DNA from: Gammaproteobacteria bacterium
GTDB taxonomy: Bacteria; Pseudomonadota; Gammaproteobacteria; Pseudomonadales; Azotimanducaceae
NCBI GenBank assembly: GCA_026706385.1
Contig: JAPOYV010000086.1
Coordinates: forward strand, 57,985-115,152
Length of the DNA stretch: 57,168 nucleotides
Direction of reading: 5' to 3'
Position numbers and translations under genes: made by a program. The notes under the pieces were generated by a model that worked only from the letters and a program-made list of their open reading frames with translations, was not told the DNA's origin and ran no database searches. Shown here in pieces: positions 3,603 to 53,550 of the stretch. How positions within the stretch are numbered: the first letter of the stretch is position 1; each line of letters begins with the position of its first letter.

Positions 3603-4808
3603 ATGGGACCATTCCGGGGAATCAAGGTGCTCGACCTCACCACCATGGTGTCGGGACCGGTCGCCGCCATGATGCTCGCGGACCAGGGTGCCAAGGTCAT
3701 CAAGGTGGAGCCGCCGGAAGGCGAGCAGATGCGGCATTTCGGCGGCGCCCACAACGGGGTCAACGCCATGTTCTACTCCTGCAACCGCGGCAAGCGCTCC
3801 ATCGCCGTGGACCTCAAGTCCGAGCGGGGCAAGGCCGTACTGTCCGATCTCATTCGCGGCACCGACGTGCTGCTGCAGAACTTCCGGCCGGGTGCCATGG
3901 AGCGTATGGGCTTCGGCGAGCCGCGCGTGCGGGCGCTGAACGAGAAGATCATCTACGTCTCCATCAGCGGCTTCGGCGAGCACGGACCGTTCGCGCACAA
4001 GCGGGTCTACGATCCCGTCATCCAGGCGCTGTCCGGGGCCACCGACATCCAGGCGAACCGGGAGACCGGTAAGCCCGCGATGTTCCGCATCATCATCGCC
4101 GACAAGGTGACCTCCCTGACGGCGGCCCAGGCGATCGCGGCGGCACTCTTCCACCGCGAGCGCACGAACGAGGGGCAGCACGTCAGGCTGTCGATGCTGG
4201 AGTCCATGCTGGCGTTCTTCTGGCCCGAAGGGATGGGCGGTCTTACGTTCGCCGAACGCGAATTCGACGTGACCCGCGGCCAGGGCACCATGGACCTGGT
4301 GTTCGAGACCCAAGACGGCCACATCACCGCCGGCGCGATCTCCACCAAGGAGTGGGTGGGCATGTGCCGGGCGCTGGACCGGGAAGACCTGATCGATGAT
4401 GAGCGCTTCGCCACTCCGCGCGCCCGCGCCCGGAACGGCGACGAGCGCAAGCGCATCACCGCGGCGGAGATCGCCAAGTGGCCGCGGGACGTGATCCTCG
4501 CTCGCCTGGACGCCAACGACGTACCGAGCGCACCGCTCCTGACGCGCATGGAGTTGATGGACCACGAGCAGATCCGGGTGAACGAGTCCATCGAGCGGCA
4601 CACCGTCCAAGGTTTCGGGGAGGTTCGCCAGGCAACGCCCGCGGCGCGGTTCAGTGCCTCGCCGAGCAGCATCCAAGGGCCGGCGCCTCGCCTCGGCGAG
4701 CACAGCGTCGAGATTCTCGCCGAACTCGGCTACGATGAAGAGCGCACCACGGCCCTCGTCGACGCTGGCGTGGTCGCCCAGTGGGAGCAACCGGGGGAGG
4801 ACCGATGA
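3603..4808 (+). CDS. CaiB/BaiF family (class III) CoA transferase
   Basis: A 401-residue class III CoA transferase, which moves CoA from one acyl-CoA to a free acid through an aspartyl mixed anhydride. The N-terminal motif GIKVLDLTTMVSGPV (6-20), the DQGAKVIKVEPP stretch (27-38), LKSERGKAVL and LQNFRPGAMERMG are family signatures; the likely nucleophile is D167 in IADKVT, matching D169 of formyl-CoA transferase. The start has a strong AAGGAGG 5 nt upstream. The stop overlaps the start of the following dioxygenase gene by four bases, so the two are translationally coupled. The divergent acyl-CoA dehydrogenase suggests it activates the substrate of that pathway. Confidence 0.9.
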   Translation: MGPFRGIKVLDLTTMVSGPVAAMMLADQGAKVIKVEPPEGEQMRHFGGAHNGVNAMFYSCNRGKRSIAVDLKSERGKAVLSDLIRGTDVLLQNFRPGAMERMGFGEPRVRALNEKIIYVSISGFGEHGPFAHKRVYDPVIQALSGATDIQANRETGKPAMFRIIIADKVTSLTAAQAIAAALFHRERTNEGQHVRLSMLESMLAFFWPEGMGGLTFAEREFDVTRGQGTMDLVFETQDGHITAGAISTKEWVGMCRALDREDLIDDERFATPRARARNGDERKRITAAEIAKWPRDVILARLDANDVPSAPLLTRMELMDHEQIRVNESIERHTVQGFGEVRQATPAARFSASPSSIQGPAPRLGEHSVEILAELGYDEERTTALVDAGVVAQWEQPGEDR

Positions 4809-5587
4809 GCGACGGCGCCAGGCGTCCCTCGACCGACGTGCGCATAGACCCGCGGCGGTTCGACGAACTCAAGGTCTGGGGCTTCACGGTCATCCCGGAC
4901 GTCCTCGATCCGGCTACAGCAGCCGCAATGCGCGATTTCGTCGTCGAACGGATCTTCGATATCGGCGTGGAGCACGGCTACCGCGGCACCGCCAGGCACC
5001 TCGCCAATCTGGTGGCGCTCGATCCCATGTTCCTGCCCGTCATCGACCACGCCGCCGTCCTCCCCTACATCGAGGCAGTGATGGGCACGGACCTGATCCT
5101 CGGGTCGTTGAACGCCCGGGTGGTCCGGCCCGGCGAGCCCGAACAGACCCTGCACGGCGACGTGCCGCTGGCGATGCAACGCTACGGGGACGATGCGCCG
5201 CTGATGATGAACACAGTCTGGGCGCTCTCCGACCTCAACCCCGGCAACGGCGGCACCCGGCTGGTGCCGGGCAGCCACCAGAGCCACCTGCGCGAGCCGC
5301 CGCCGGGCTTGCACCTGCCGCACGAGGCACAACCCGACCTACGCGCGGGCTCCGTGGTGATCTTCCATGGCCAGACCTGGCACGCGGGCGGTGCGAACCA
5401 TTCGGACGAACTGCGCACGGCCATGTTCGGGCACTACCGCCACAGCCATTGGCTGCGCTTCCAATGCGACCCCCACGACGGATTCCGCGAAGAGTGGCTT
5501 CAGGACATGACGCCTCGGCAGAAGGAACTTCTGAGGATGACCAACGGGGTGGATCACCGCCACGGCGCGGACTTCTACGAGCGTTGA
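4805..5587 (+). CDS. phytanoyl-CoA dioxygenase (PhyH) family oxygenase
   Basis: A 260-residue Fe(II)/2-oxoglutarate oxygenase. The iron triad is complete: H117-G-D119 in TLHGDVP and distal H193 in QTWHAGGANHSDE, with R204 placed to bind 2-oxoglutarate; GNGGTRLVPGSH (147-158) is the typical core strand. ATG 4805 is chosen over the in-frame ATG 4781 because GGGGGAGG ends 4 nt before it and it makes an ATGA overlap with the CoA transferase stop. Coupling to the CoA transferase suggests hydroxylation of a CoA thioester or of the free acid made from it; the substrate is unknown. Confidence 0.85.
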   Translation: MSDGARRPSTDVRIDPRRFDELKVWGFTVIPDVLDPATAAAMRDFVVERIFDIGVEHGYRGTARHLANLVALDPMFLPVIDHAAVLPYIEAVMGTDLILGSLNARVVRPGEPEQTLHGDVPLAMQRYGDDAPLMMNTVWALSDLNPGNGGTRLVPGSHQSHLREPPPGLHLPHEAQPDLRAGSVVIFHGQTWHAGGANHSDELRTAMFGHYRHSHWLRFQCDPHDGFREEWLQDMTPRQKELLRMTNGVDHRHGADFYER

Positions 5588-46008: not shown

Positions 46009-46773
46009 ATGCGCTGGCTTGTGGGGACCAGCGGATACAGCTACAAGGCGTGGAAAGGCAGTTTCTATCCCGAGGACATCGCGGCCGACCGCATGCTGAG
46101 CTACTACGCATCGAAGCTGCCTGCGGTTGAGATCAACAACACGTTCTACCGGATGCCGCGCGTCGAAGTGCTCGATGTCTGGCGCCAGGCCGTACCGGAC
46201 GATTTCCGCTTCGTCATCAAGGCACCGCGACAGATCACCCATCAAGCCCGCCTAGCCAACTGCGAAGGCCCGGTGGACTACTTGGCGTCCCGGCTCGAGA
46301 CTCTTGGCGACAAGCTCGGCTGCGTGCTGTTCCAATTGCCGCCCTACGTGCGCAAGAACCTCGAACGACTCGAGGCATTCCTGGACCTCTGGCCCAAGGC
46401 GTTCCCGGCCGCGGTCGAGTTCCGGCACGCCTCGTGGTTCGACATTGAGACCAATGAGTCGCTCCGTGGGCACGGGACGTGCCTTTGCGTCTCCGAGGAC
46501 GGCAAGCTCGAGCTGCCGGATCACCTCACCACGACCGATTGGGCGTACCTACGACTGCGCAAGCCCGGCTACGACAACGCCGCCCTAAAGAGTTGGGCAG
46601 AACGCGTCGCCGCCACCGGCGCAAAGCAGGGTTTCGCCTTTTTCAAGCACGAGGACAGCGGGGCCGGACCGACGCTCGCGCGACGTTTCCTTGACCTGAC
46701 CACGACGGGTGCCCAGCACGGCCCGCAGGCGGCGATCCGGCATGGCCCCTCGCCAGCCCAGGACATCGCTTGA
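46009..46773 (+). CDS. DUF72 (YecE-like) TIM-barrel protein
   Basis: A 254-residue DUF72 protein: GTSGYSYKAWKGSFYPEDI at the start, YYASKLPAVEINNTFYRMP, FVIKAPRQITH, CVLFQLPPYVRKNLERLEAF, AVEFRHASWF and DWAYLRLRKPGYDNAAL. It has a TIM-barrel fold; activity is unproven. TAAGGAGG lies 5 nt before ATG 46009, which settles the start. Its stop overlaps the TTG start of the next gene. Confidence 0.9.
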   Translation: MRWLVGTSGYSYKAWKGSFYPEDIAADRMLSYYASKLPAVEINNTFYRMPRVEVLDVWRQAVPDDFRFVIKAPRQITHQARLANCEGPVDYLASRLETLGDKLGCVLFQLPPYVRKNLERLEAFLDLWPKAFPAAVEFRHASWFDIETNESLRGHGTCLCVSEDGKLELPDHLTTTDWAYLRLRKPGYDNAALKSWAERVAATGAKQGFAFFKHEDSGAGPTLARRFLDLTTTGAQHGPQAAIRHGPSPAQDIA

Positions 46774-47567
46774 CCGGATCATTGGCGAGGGCCCTGACGG
46801 CGCACGAGCGGGCGACATTCCGCGACGCGGGCTACCTGCTGCGCCCGGGCTTCATCGATGCCGAAGCCTGCGCGCGCTACGATGCGCGCTTCGTCGAACT
46901 TGCCAACGGCAGCGCGCCGCGACCCGAAGGGATGATCGCCATGCGCGATGTGATGGTCGTCAAGGGCGCGGTCGAGCCCCCGACCGCGTTGCATGGGATC
47001 AACAAGATCCTCAATTTCGAAACGGATCCTGTGCTGTTCGACTACGCCAAGGATGCCGCCGTCCTCGATGTCGCGCGGCAACTCGTCGACGCCTCGCCGG
47101 GCGCGCCCGTCTACGTCATCACGACCAACGTGTTCAACAAGCCGCCCGGCGTGGACGGCCGCCACCCCTTGCACCAGGACCTGCGCTACTTCCGGCTGCG
47201 TCCCCCCGAGGGCATCGTCGCGTCATGGACCGCGCTCGCGCCGTGCACGCGACAAACCGGCTGCCTGGCCGTCGTGCCGGGATCGCACCTAGGTGGACTG
47301 CGGCCCCACGGCGACCCGGATTGGGACTACGTCAACCATGCGTTCTATGGCGTCGACGGCGTCGACCGGGCGCGCCGGGTGCACGTCGAGATGCAGCCGG
47401 GGGATACGCTGTTCTTCCATCCGCTCCTGATCCACGGCTCCGGACGCAACCGCAGCGAGGGCTTCAGGCGCGCGATCTCCGCCCACTTCGCGTCCCCACG
47501 CTGCACCACGGATGGCCGAGATTGGAAAACCGGGCCGCACATTCGCGCCGTAGGCGGCGCGCCCTGA
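46770..47567 (+). CDS. phytanoyl-CoA dioxygenase, canonical PAHX-like
   Basis: A 265-residue Fe(II)/2-oxoglutarate oxygenase. HPLHQDLRYFRLRPP carries H135 and D137, the same HQDLHYFPFRP context as human phytanoyl-CoA hydroxylase; distal H222 is in PLLIHGSGRNRSEGFRRAI, with R234 placed for 2-oxoglutarate. The TTG start at 46770 overlaps the DUF72 stop. It likely 2-hydroxylates a branched acyl-CoA or a related compound; substrate is inference. Confidence 0.88.
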   Translation: MTGSLARALTAHERATFRDAGYLLRPGFIDAEACARYDARFVELANGSAPRPEGMIAMRDVMVVKGAVEPPTALHGINKILNFETDPVLFDYAKDAAVLDVARQLVDASPGAPVYVITTNVFNKPPGVDGRHPLHQDLRYFRLRPPEGIVASWTALAPCTRQTGCLAVVPGSHLGGLRPHGDPDWDYVNHAFYGVDGVDRARRVHVEMQPGDTLFFHPLLIHGSGRNRSEGFRRAISAHFASPRCTTDGRDWKTGPHIRAVGGAP

Positions 47568-51349: not shown

Positions 51350-52504
51350 CTAGATGCGCGGCGACCGGGCAAGCACGCTGATGGCGTTCTTGAAATGCAG
51401 CGCCGCCTCCAGGTCGTCGGCGGCAATGGCCTCGGCCTTTCGCGCCTCGAGCTCGCGCCGCTTCTCCTCGAAGGCCGCCTCGTCGACGGGCGCATAGGTG
51501 GGTCCGTCGATGCCGGGGTCCATCTCATGGCCGTGGGCGCCCGGCACGAGCACGTCGAAATCTCCCTTGAGCACGGAATCGGCCGGCGCCTGGCACTCCG
51601 CAACGTAGTTCAGCGCGCCAGCGGGCTGCCGGTAGCCGATGAGCCGCTGCATGGCGGGGTCGAGCTTGCGCGCCAAGTGCGGCGGACAGGCGAGCAGTTG
51701 ATTCTCCTCCTGGGCAAGGAACGCCAGCGCATAGTTGATGTTCATGCCGATCCGGCGCTCGTCGGAGGTATTCGTACCGGCCCCGTGCACGGACCAGCCC
51801 GTCCAGATCAAGACGCTGCCCTTGGGCATGGCCGCCTGAATTGTCGGTTCGGCGTGGCTCACCTGTCCGCCACGAGGCTGTTCCCGATGGCTGCCGAGCA
51901 CGATGTGAGTGGCACCGTTGTCGAGCGTGAAATCGGACAGTGCCCACATGCATTCCACCTGCGGGTCCACGCCGGCGTCCTGGAAGTCATAGACCCACAT
52001 GCCGTTGGCGCGGTGCATTTTGAGGTGGTGCGGAAGCGCGTCGGTGCCGCCGCCGGGACCGACATCGATGATCTGGGTGAGGTGCAGTTGCCATGGGTAG
52101 CGGAAGCCCTTTTCGCCCTTGCCGGACTTGCCGCCGATGCGCACGGCATCGCCGGAGAGGCGCTGTTCGGCGAGAACGGACTGCGCCAAACGCAGGATCG
52201 CCGGGTGCGCAATCATCTTGTGGCTGGCCCGGGAGCGTGCCACCAAGGCGCCGACGCGACGCGTCCCCCCTAGGCCATGCAGCCCGTGCGGCGTGGCGTC
52301 TATGAACGGGGCCATCTCGGCCACGAGTCGGTCGCAATCGCTCGCCGCGACCGCGTTTTCGATGACCACGAACCCGTGCCGGTCCAGACTCCGAAGCACG
52401 TCTTGGTCGAGCCGCGCCAACGCATCCGCACCAGCTTCGGTCGCGACGCGATAGTCGAACCGCTTCAGTTCGTGCGTGCCGAATGCGTTGGTGACGGTTG
52501 GCAT
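51350..52504 (-). CDS. PhyH-family protein with HxA iron motif and UVR-like tail
   Basis: A 384-residue PhyH-family jelly-roll protein. The segments QIIDVGPGGGTD, MWALSDFTLDNGATHIVLGS, KGSVLIWTGWSVHGAGTNTS and NINYALAFLAQEENQ match ordinary PhyH oxygenases, but where these have LHRDQW the sequence reads MHRANGMW, so the iron-ligand aspartate is A166 while H164 and distal H240 are kept. HxA/HxG in place of HxD is the hallmark of 2-oxoglutarate halogenases such as SyrB2. The last 45 residues (FEEKRRELEARKAEAIAADD, LEAALHFKNAISVL) resemble a UVR motif. Loss of activity is the alternative. ATG 52504 is preferred; divergent from the SDR gene. Confidence 0.8.
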   Translation of the reverse strand: MPTVTNAFGTHELKRFDYRVATEAGADALARLDQDVLRSLDRHGFVVIENAVAASDCDRLVAEMAPFIDATPHGLHGLGGTRRVGALVARSRASHKMIAHPAILRLAQSVLAEQRLSGDAVRIGGKSGKGEKGFRYPWQLHLTQIIDVGPGGGTDALPHHLKMHRANGMWVYDFQDAGVDPQVECMWALSDFTLDNGATHIVLGSHREQPRGGQVSHAEPTIQAAMPKGSVLIWTGWSVHGAGTNTSDERRIGMNINYALAFLAQEENQLLACPPHLARKLDPAMQRLIGYRQPAGALNYVAECQAPADSVLKGDFDVLVPGAHGHEMDPGIDGPTYAPVDEAAFEEKRRELEARKAEAIAADDLEAALHFKNAISVLARSPRI

Positions 52505-52617
52505 GGATTCCTTGACGTCCGCAGGTGAGCGGGGACTATCCTGCCACAACGGTGTCGCGCCACCAGCCGGATAGTCTGCGCGTATCCTGTCTGGATTCAA
52601 AGCCTCGGAGAGAGCCC

Positions 52618-53550
52618 ATGAACGATACCGCTCGCAACGCCCACGCGGACTTGCGCGCGCTCGCCGGCGGCGTGGCAGTTATCACCGGCGGCGCATCCGG
52701 CATCGGTTTCGCCCTAGCAGAGAAGTCGATCGGCTTGGGCCTCCACCCGGTCCTGGCCGACATCGAGGCCCCGGCGATCCGACAGGCCGAGGCGCGCTTG
52801 GCAACGGCGGCCCGGACGGCAGACGTCGAGGTGTTCGGCTTCCCGGTCGACGTGTCCCGGGAGGCGGACGTGAACGCCCTGGCCGCGGCCGTTGCCGAGC
52901 GTTTCCCGGACCGGCCGGTTCAGCTCCTGTGCTGCAACGCCGGTGTCGGCGGCGGCGGGCCCGTGCTGCGGGCGAGCGACATCGACTGGGATTTCGTCCT
53001 CGGCGTCAACGTCAAGGGGGTTGCCAACTGCATCCGCGCCTTCGTCCCTGAGATGCTGGAGCGCCGCGTCGCCGGTTCCGTCGTGACGACATCCTCGCAG
53101 GACGGCCTGTGCGCAGCCCAGGGTGTCTACGGCGTCTCGAAACACGCCTGTGTAGCCTTGACAGAGGCTTTGTACCAAGAGCTCCAAGGCCGCCTCACCG
53201 CGCACGTGCTGTGCCCGAATGCGGTGGCGACCAACATCATCACGTCCGAACGCAACCGCCCGGAGCGCTACGGCGGACCGCGCGGCGGTGGGCCGAACCC
53301 CATCGCCGAGCGCTTCAAGGCGTTCGGCATGCCACCGTCGCGCTGCGCCGAGTTCGTATTCGACGCCATCCGGACGGGGACGTTCTACATCATGGCGGAA
53401 GCCGAAGAAGATCCCGGCTACGTCTACTCGGAAGCCGAGACGCGGATGCAGGCGATCTTGGGCGGCGGACTCCCGTACCGGCCGCGCAGCGCGTTCCTCA
53501 GCAAGGTATTCGATCCCAACACGCCGCTGCCCACACGGGAGGAAGACTGA
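52618..53550 (+). CDS. short-chain dehydrogenase/reductase
   Basis: A 310-residue SDR. Cofactor motif GGASGIG (24-30), CCNAGVG (105-111), N131 in GVNVKG, S160 in TTSSQDG and Y171-x3-K175 (YGVSK) make a complete classical catalytic tetrad. The tail beyond 220 is longer than in classical members and ends SKVFDPNTPLPTREED. GGAGAGAG precedes the ATG. It oxidises or reduces a hydroxyl/carbonyl; divergent from the PhyH-like gene, so possibly of one pathway. Confidence 0.9.
   Translation: MNDTARNAHADLRALAGGVAVITGGASGIGFALAEKSIGLGLHPVLADIEAPAIRQAEARLATAARTADVEVFGFPVDVSREADVNALAAAVAERFPDRPVQLLCCNAGVGGGGPVLRASDIDWDFVLGVNVKGVANCIRAFVPEMLERRVAGSVVTTSSQDGLCAAQGVYGVSKHACVALTEALYQELQGRLTAHVLCPNAVATNIITSERNRPERYGGPRGGGPNPIAERFKAFGMPPSRCAEFVFDAIRTGTFYIMAEAEEDPGYVYSEAETRMQAILGGGLPYRPRSAFLSKVFDPNTPLPTREED

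Follow-up and report, generated by a model that had tools for sequence, protein, structure and literature searches.

A conserved clade of PhyH-family proteins without the canonical iron carboxylate in Gammaproteobacteria, candidates for a further lineage of halogenases

To our knowledge, natural 2-oxoglutarate (2OG) enzymes without the carboxylate ligand of the iron are few, and most of those characterised with an HxA or HxG motif are halogenases. In the known 2OG halogenases, the aspartate or glutamate is replaced by glycine or alanine and the halide takes the site (PMC12346261). SyrB2, CytC3, WelO5, BesD, AdeV, DAH and SecA are reported to combine HxA or HxG with a distal histidine and an open third iron site, a motif like that of the clade described here (PMC12346261, PMC12766721, PMC13244439, PMC6817910, PMC12171316), and independent origins of halogenases are described for DAH in plants (PMC12346261) and for SecA, a Pseudomonas HXG chlorinase with a structure closest to that of AtsK (PMC12171316). 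Human aspartate/asparagine beta-hydroxylase (AspH) is a further 2OG enzyme whose iron site, as in the clade, naturally has two histidines, with an HxG motif (PMC8252765, PMC6817910); it is, however, a proven hydroxylase, for which no halogenase activity was seen in the presence of chloride (PMC6817910). Substitutions in other 2OG enzymes are similarly instructive: FIH keeps some hydroxylase activity when its aspartate is changed to glycine, the residue found in AspH, but not when it is changed to alanine (PMC8252765), and the D414A and D414G variants of P4H are described as not being halogenases (PMC2767507). A published mining pipeline warns of false positives from the HxA/G motif (PMC12871659).

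In the 57,168-nucleotide stretch of DNA analysed here (the window), an ATG-initiated open reading frame on the reverse strand (51350–52504), with AAGGA just 5' of its start codon, encodes a 384-residue protein of the PhyH family of Fe(II)/2OG enzymes, which matches the Pfam profile PF05721 over residues 41–252 with a score of 74.2 bits (cut-off 22). The first iron histidine and the site of the missing aspartate are encoded by the codons CAC CGC GCC (52015–52007, reverse strand), which read His164-Arg165-Ala166 as the initial annotation had claimed, and the translation equally bears out the strand GSVLIWTGWSVHGAG with His240, as well as Arg250 and Arg251, described there. Profile alignment sets this HRA on the HRD of PrhA, and the triplet likewise aligns with the HRD, HRE or HRG of relatives. 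The distal iron histidine, His240 (51785–51787, reverse strand), and Arg251 (51752–51754, reverse strand), which we take from knowledge of the family to be the 2OG-binding arginine, are invariant both in the clade to which the protein belongs (33/33 sequences) and in its 13 nearest HxD relatives, whereas Arg250 is replaced by histidine in one sequence (L078). Membership in the PhyH family is given by the profile and by kinship; the HxD/E…H triad itself is absent throughout the clade, which carries HxA in 24/24 and HxG in 10/10 sequences, and what is present, in alignment with HRD relatives, is the halogenase-type HxA/G…H arrangement formed by His164-x-Ala166 and His240.

The register of the motif could be verified from the sister sequences. 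Six additional residues, PHHLKMHRANGMW, directly precede HRA in the window protein, but the sister clade, which is devoid of this insert, has VHRGNGLW or LHRGNGLW at this point, aligned with IHRDRWAW or LHRDRLAW of remoter relatives; thus, Ala166, or Gly166 in the sister clade, occupies the position of the iron aspartate. Within the insert, Pro158-His159-x-Leu161 (52022–52033, reverse strand) is a signature of the HxA branch, each of the three residues being conserved in 24/24 HxA sequences, with a gap in 10/10 HxG sequences. The same branch is distinguished by a C-terminal extension (residues 330–384; 51353–51517, reverse strand), partly predicted, in the first of two structure models, to form a helical hairpin (helices 342–361 and 365–380); alignment columns 340–380 are empty in 10/10 HxG sequences, and only 0–7 of these 41 columns are filled in the 13 nearest HxD sequences. 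The hairpin shows a pattern reminiscent of UVR, but a UVR-like nature of this C-terminus was rejected, the Pfam UVR profile matching one of six fragments with 14 bits (cut-off 21.5; E 0.043).

We gathered 64 distinct PhyH sequences, comprising 24 HxA, 10 HxG, 26 HxD and 4 HxE proteins. HxA is found in 24/24 near orthologues (63–100% identity), once as HKA (L077), and HxG in 10/10 sister sequences (50–53% identity), whereas 30/30 sequences outside the HxA/HxG clade have HxD or HxE. Close homologues with HRD, which according to the initial annotation would have pointed to a recent loss, are thus absent from the near orthologues. A glutamate in place of the aspartate (HRE, as HREE or HREM) was observed in four proteins from relatives and the own genome (L057, L058, L002 and L050), and in one HxA orthologue (L025/L043) the assembled reading frame is interrupted by a frameshift or stop, through either error or decay. 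A search of 200 genomes of the bacterial family at E 1e-40 yielded 44 matches, 25 of them HxA-type, 10 HxG-type and 9 HxD-type, as assigned by score and identity, the motif itself being read in the fetched sequences, to which the partial G451 does not belong. Of 369 class-level genomes sampled evenly, with none from the window's family besides the own genome, only the own genome gave a match at E 1e-35. A DNA pattern had matches in 11 of these 369 genomes, but the resulting class-wide family was attributed to chance after translation: of the ten matches in other genomes, five lack an open frame of 60 amino acids with the motif and five match the query at E of at least 0.026 or not at all. Scans of viral collections for deeper alignments yielded few sequences. 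The genomes from which 21 related loci were retrieved are metagenome-assembled genomes labelled Gammaproteobacteria, Pseudomonadales and OM182, and the isolate names of several relatives look, presumably, like sponge series; the enzyme is apparently carried by a marine, often sponge-associated bacterial group. No paper on the HxA/HxG clade was found by title or abstract, in literature mostly outside subscription journals.

For phylogenetic analysis, the columns of residues 152–171, which span the motif, were removed, and 57 of the 64 sequences were retained, a frameshifted fragment and six distant relatives being left out. The 23 HxA and 10 HxG proteins form one clade (support 100/100) on a stem of 1.54 changes per column, within which HxA sequences constitute one clade (100/98) and HxG sequences another (92/93). 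Several outgroup sequences are long-branched, and the exact sister group of the HxA/HxG clade is therefore unsure. The simplest account of this topology is a single loss of the carboxylate, after which alanine was kept in one branch and glycine in the other.

Counts of invariant and switched sites and pN/pS ratios were based on 33 of the 34 clade sequences, without the L043 fragment, and, for the sites, on the 13 nearest of the 26 HxD sequences as comparison. His164, His240, Arg251, Arg83, Asn167, Gly168 and Trp170 are invariant in 33/33 clade sequences. The pN/pS of the window gene is 0.086 against a relative with 95% identity, 0.20–0.29 against the other 21 HxA sequences and 0.36–0.45 against the 10 HxG sequences, silent sites being near saturation in the latter two comparisons. 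Codon 166 varies silently across the 33 unbroken sequences (GCC 17, GCG 4, GCA 1 and GCT 1; GGC 4, GGA 3 and GGT 3), indicating that the residue, rather than the codon, is kept. Judging by these ratios, the gene is under purifying selection, and the argument of the initial annotation against a dead gene, which rested on the intact second histidine and arginine, is sustained by their conservation in all 33 sequences and by pN/pS values well below 1. Decay could in principle be entertained, given that PhyH genes are numerous (95 in the genome) and some may decay, and that the L043/L025 orthologue is broken; nevertheless, alanine or glycine in 34/34 clade sequences from many assemblies, specified in the 33 unbroken ones by four alanine and three glycine codons, rules out a recent or sequencing-level loss of the aspartate.

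The loss of the aspartate was accompanied by a coordinated change of other positions. Besides D166A/G, eleven further sites are each fixed for one residue in the 33 clade sequences and for another in the 13 nearest HxD sequences, namely D76H, F78L, R95H, R167N, N184E, Y234W, S237W, G242A, W262F, G299N and P304C. His76 (52277–52279, reverse strand) replaces an invariant aspartate (33/33 versus 13/13) and is a candidate second-sphere residue or third ligand; Asn167 (52004–52006, reverse strand), adjacent to the motif, replaces an invariant arginine (33/33 versus 13/13); and Glu184 (51953–51955, reverse strand), in a predicted strand (residues 182–188), replaces an invariant asparagine (33/33 versus 13/13) and is a candidate displaced carboxylate. 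Positions 76, 166 and 167 read DDR in 14/26 HxD sequences and HAN or HGN in 33/33 clade sequences. Furthermore, His73 is present in 33/33 clade sequences, where Met, Phe, Tyr or Leu prevail in the 13 nearest HxD sequences, and Asp147 in 33/33, as opposed to Tyr, Arg and others in the latter; the new invariant histidines are thus His73 and His76, joined by His159 in the HxA branch alone. Two acids and one base are lost near the motif, which would favour an anion there. The initial annotation had considered that another aspartate or glutamate might serve as ligand: none is found in the ligand column, and Asp173 varies to asparagine, but the gain of Glu184 and the newly invariant Asp147 imply that the carboxylate may have been relocated and not lost altogether.

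The closest relatives outside the clade are 13 PhyH proteins with HRD, also from this bacterial family (L045–L048, L056, L084–L090 and L092), with 35–40% identity. They share the GAL-ARS and QEENQ blocks with the clade but have Asp76, Asp166, Arg167 and Asn184 where the clade has His, Ala/Gly, Asn and Glu, possess no insert before the motif and fill at most 7 of the 41 columns of the C-terminal extension. By sequence, the nearest solved relatives include the PhyH-type dioxygenases PrhA, AusE, SwnH1/SwnH2, AsqJ, AndA, SptF and DhiD, and in the alignments PrhA, AusE, SwnH1, DhiD and AsqJ have HRD in contrast to the HRA of the window protein. Of the two structure models obtained, the first had a pLDDT of 61, with residues 156–173 below 50, and the second, built from 27 aligned sequences, a pLDDT of 75.6 and a pTM of 0.83. 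In a Foldseek comparison with solved structures, SptF (7eyw, E 1.8e-17), AndA, AsqJ, PrhA and TlxIJ lead the best 50 of 1682 matches, with SptF, AndA, AsqJ and PrhA sharing 18–23% identity with the window protein.

No match named as a halogenase occurs in those best 50 Foldseek matches, nor among the solved-structure sequence matches listed (44; 50; 60 of 62), some of which are named only Oxidoreductase, which suggests that the carboxylate was lost independently. AspH, likewise, is not named among the sequence matches listed for the window protein. The model of SyrB2-type chlorinating enzymes, TIGR01762 (cut-off 226.3), matched one of 21 members at all, with E 0.1, and its 12 weak matches elsewhere in the own genome, none of them above the cut-off, do not include the window gene. 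SyrB2 is reported to require a carrier-bound substrate (PMC13244439); by contrast, a carrier protein was not found on the window's contig.

The genomic neighbourhood provides few clues to the function. SyrB2-type chlorinating enzymes act on carrier-bound substrates and usually have assembly-line genes nearby; such a context is missing here, the three PP-binding matches of the genome all lying outside the window's contig, so that a carrier-bound substrate is not suggested. The initial annotation had proposed that the divergent SDR gene and the nearby NUDIX, reductase and hydroxyacid dehydrogenase genes could form the pathway of the enzyme. Of these, the SDR oxidoreductase (52618–53550, forward strand; PF00106, 2.3e-35), separated from the PhyH gene by a divergent intergenic region of 113 bp (52505–52617, between the starts at 52504 on the reverse and 52618 on the forward strand), does recur: it is the sole recurrent neighbour among the window genes, being found near the HxA gene in 11/28 loci and adjoining it in 8. 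The other three loci (L012, L018 and L019) have a single large gene between the two, which is penicillin-amidase-like in L012 and belongs to the same cluster in L018 and L019. The 11 SDR-bearing loci belong, by matching sequences, to genomes of the window's genus, although the SDR gene is absent from the stretch examined at L102, L103 and L025, which are also of that genus. The remaining candidate operon partners were dismissed: among the 28 loci, several of them short-flanked, L009, the nearest relative, is the only one where the NUDIX, aldo-keto reductase, GST, hydroxyacid dehydrogenase, DUF4153 and membrane genes again accompany the HxA gene. Clusters with enoyl-CoA hydratase and CoA-transferase genes were observed near HxA genes (L020–L022, L027 and L100) and one HxG gene (L028), the domains having been checked in L028 and L100 only; these genes are common, and the clusters may hint at acyl-CoA substrates or reflect chance. 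Neither a conserved biosynthetic cluster nor a gene context of halogenation was found in the loci examined, and the PhyH gene is best regarded as working on its own.

The own genome, 5.1 Mb in size, contains an extensive complement of PhyH proteins, with 95 PF05721 matches above the cut-off; an expansion of this family in sponge symbionts has been published for Poribacteria (PMC3909097). Two of these genes lie elsewhere in the window (46770–47567, forward strand, HQD, 134 bits; and 4808–5557, forward strand, HGD). Among the 94 other proteins (97 sequences, with the query and two fragments set aside), the ligand column holds HxD in 85, HxE in 1, HxG in 5 and HxH in 1, with 2 misaligned, and HxA occurs in the window gene alone among the 95. 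Odd motifs in this column include PHNGNG in L193 (contig C80) and WHQH in L149 (contig C84). Four of the five HxG proteins (L188, L198, L161 and L196, on contigs C46, C77, C5 and C62) represent a second carboxylate-less PhyH class, with LHGG(G) for HxD, whose relatives include L205–L210 and L212–L215. With one member as query, relatives at E 1e-60 are present in 18/100 genomes of the family, the own genome included, and LHGG is read in 13 of the 15 sequences among the matches listed, the other two being a single neighbouring HAD gene that appears twice; in 299 genomes of the phylum, at E 1e-30, the class was found in the own genome only. An HxD relative from the own genome (L204), with 33% identity to this class, reads LHADYG. 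The five further HxG proteins raise the possibility that carboxylate loss is a wider, non-halogenating habit of the PhyH expansion.

Taken together, these observations establish that a PhyH clade lacking the canonical iron carboxylate has been conserved, and its members very probably are 2OG enzymes maintained by selection without the canonical aspartate. As to their chemistry, halogenation is the reading that we tentatively favour from sequence comparison, the best single guess for what is still an unproven candidate. Iron would be held by His164 and His240 in the PhyH fold, and Ala166, or glycine in the sister clade, would leave the usual third protein site open, to be filled by chloride or bromide from sea water in preference to water, substrate or another side chain. 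Oxygen and 2OG would then yield a halo-ferryl species and the C–H bond of a small, freestanding, presumably untethered substrate would be halogenated, with the switched positions placed near the iron. In its fuller form, which we put forward with yet more reserve, the clade could represent aliphatic halogenases that work alone and arose independently within PhyH, so far known from one marine family of Gammaproteobacteria, with many members apparently from sponges, and unrelated to the SyrB2, WelO5 and BesD lineages; the loss of Asp166 together with the D76H, R167N and N184E switches would make an anion pocket at the iron.

Several other readings deserve consideration. One is an AspH-type 2OG hydroxylase or oxidase with two iron histidines, in which water or a substrate carboxylate would occupy the open site and ordinary oxygen rebound would follow; we regard this as somewhat unlikely. 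Such chemistry has a precedent in AspH itself, which hydroxylates with a two-histidine metal site that a substrate carboxylate can approach (PMC6817910, PMC8252765), and it would be compatible with the HxG motif of the sister clade, with the separate LHGG class of the own genome, likewise devoid of the carboxylate, and with the lack, at the loci examined, of a gene context of halogenation. However, the window clade has alanine, not glycine, and, because FIH remains active with glycine but not with alanine (PMC8252765), a natural alanine fits a water-filled hydroxylase less well. Alternatively, a displaced protein ligand, either a new histidine (His76 or His73, or His159 in the HxA branch) or a new acid (Glu184 or Asp147), would complete the iron site, whose chemistry may then be ordinary. 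In favour of this, the D76H and N184E switches, both invariant (33/33 versus 13/13), coincide with the loss of Asp166, and His73 and Asp147 are constant in 33/33 clade sequences and His159 in 24/24 HxA sequences. We consider this reading unlikely; His159 is absent from the HxG clade, and a three-histidine site is reported to be non-functional in P4H (PMC2767507).

Less probable still is a PhyH protein devoid of catalysis, which would bind 2OG or another ligand in a sensing or scaffolding role. The carboxylate-less PhyH proteins of the same genome and the length of the stem (1.54 changes per column), which signifies a large change of constraint, would agree with such a role, but invariance of both histidines and of the presumed 2OG arginine under purifying selection would be odd for a dead site. 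As for an alanine recently acquired in a decaying gene, the conservation described above makes it exceedingly improbable. Against the AspH-type hydroxylase, finally, stands the prevalence of halogenases among the characterised natural HxA/HxG 2OG enzymes, and halogenation remains our preferred, if tentative, reading.

Regardless of which chemistry applies, the clade, with its alanine and glycine branches and its HxD relatives, amounts to a natural experiment on the loss of the iron carboxylate. If the favoured reading holds, it is possibly a new source of C–H halogenation; if, instead, its members are hydroxylases, they would constitute a bacterial parallel to AspH, and the HxA/G motif alone would not predict halogenation.
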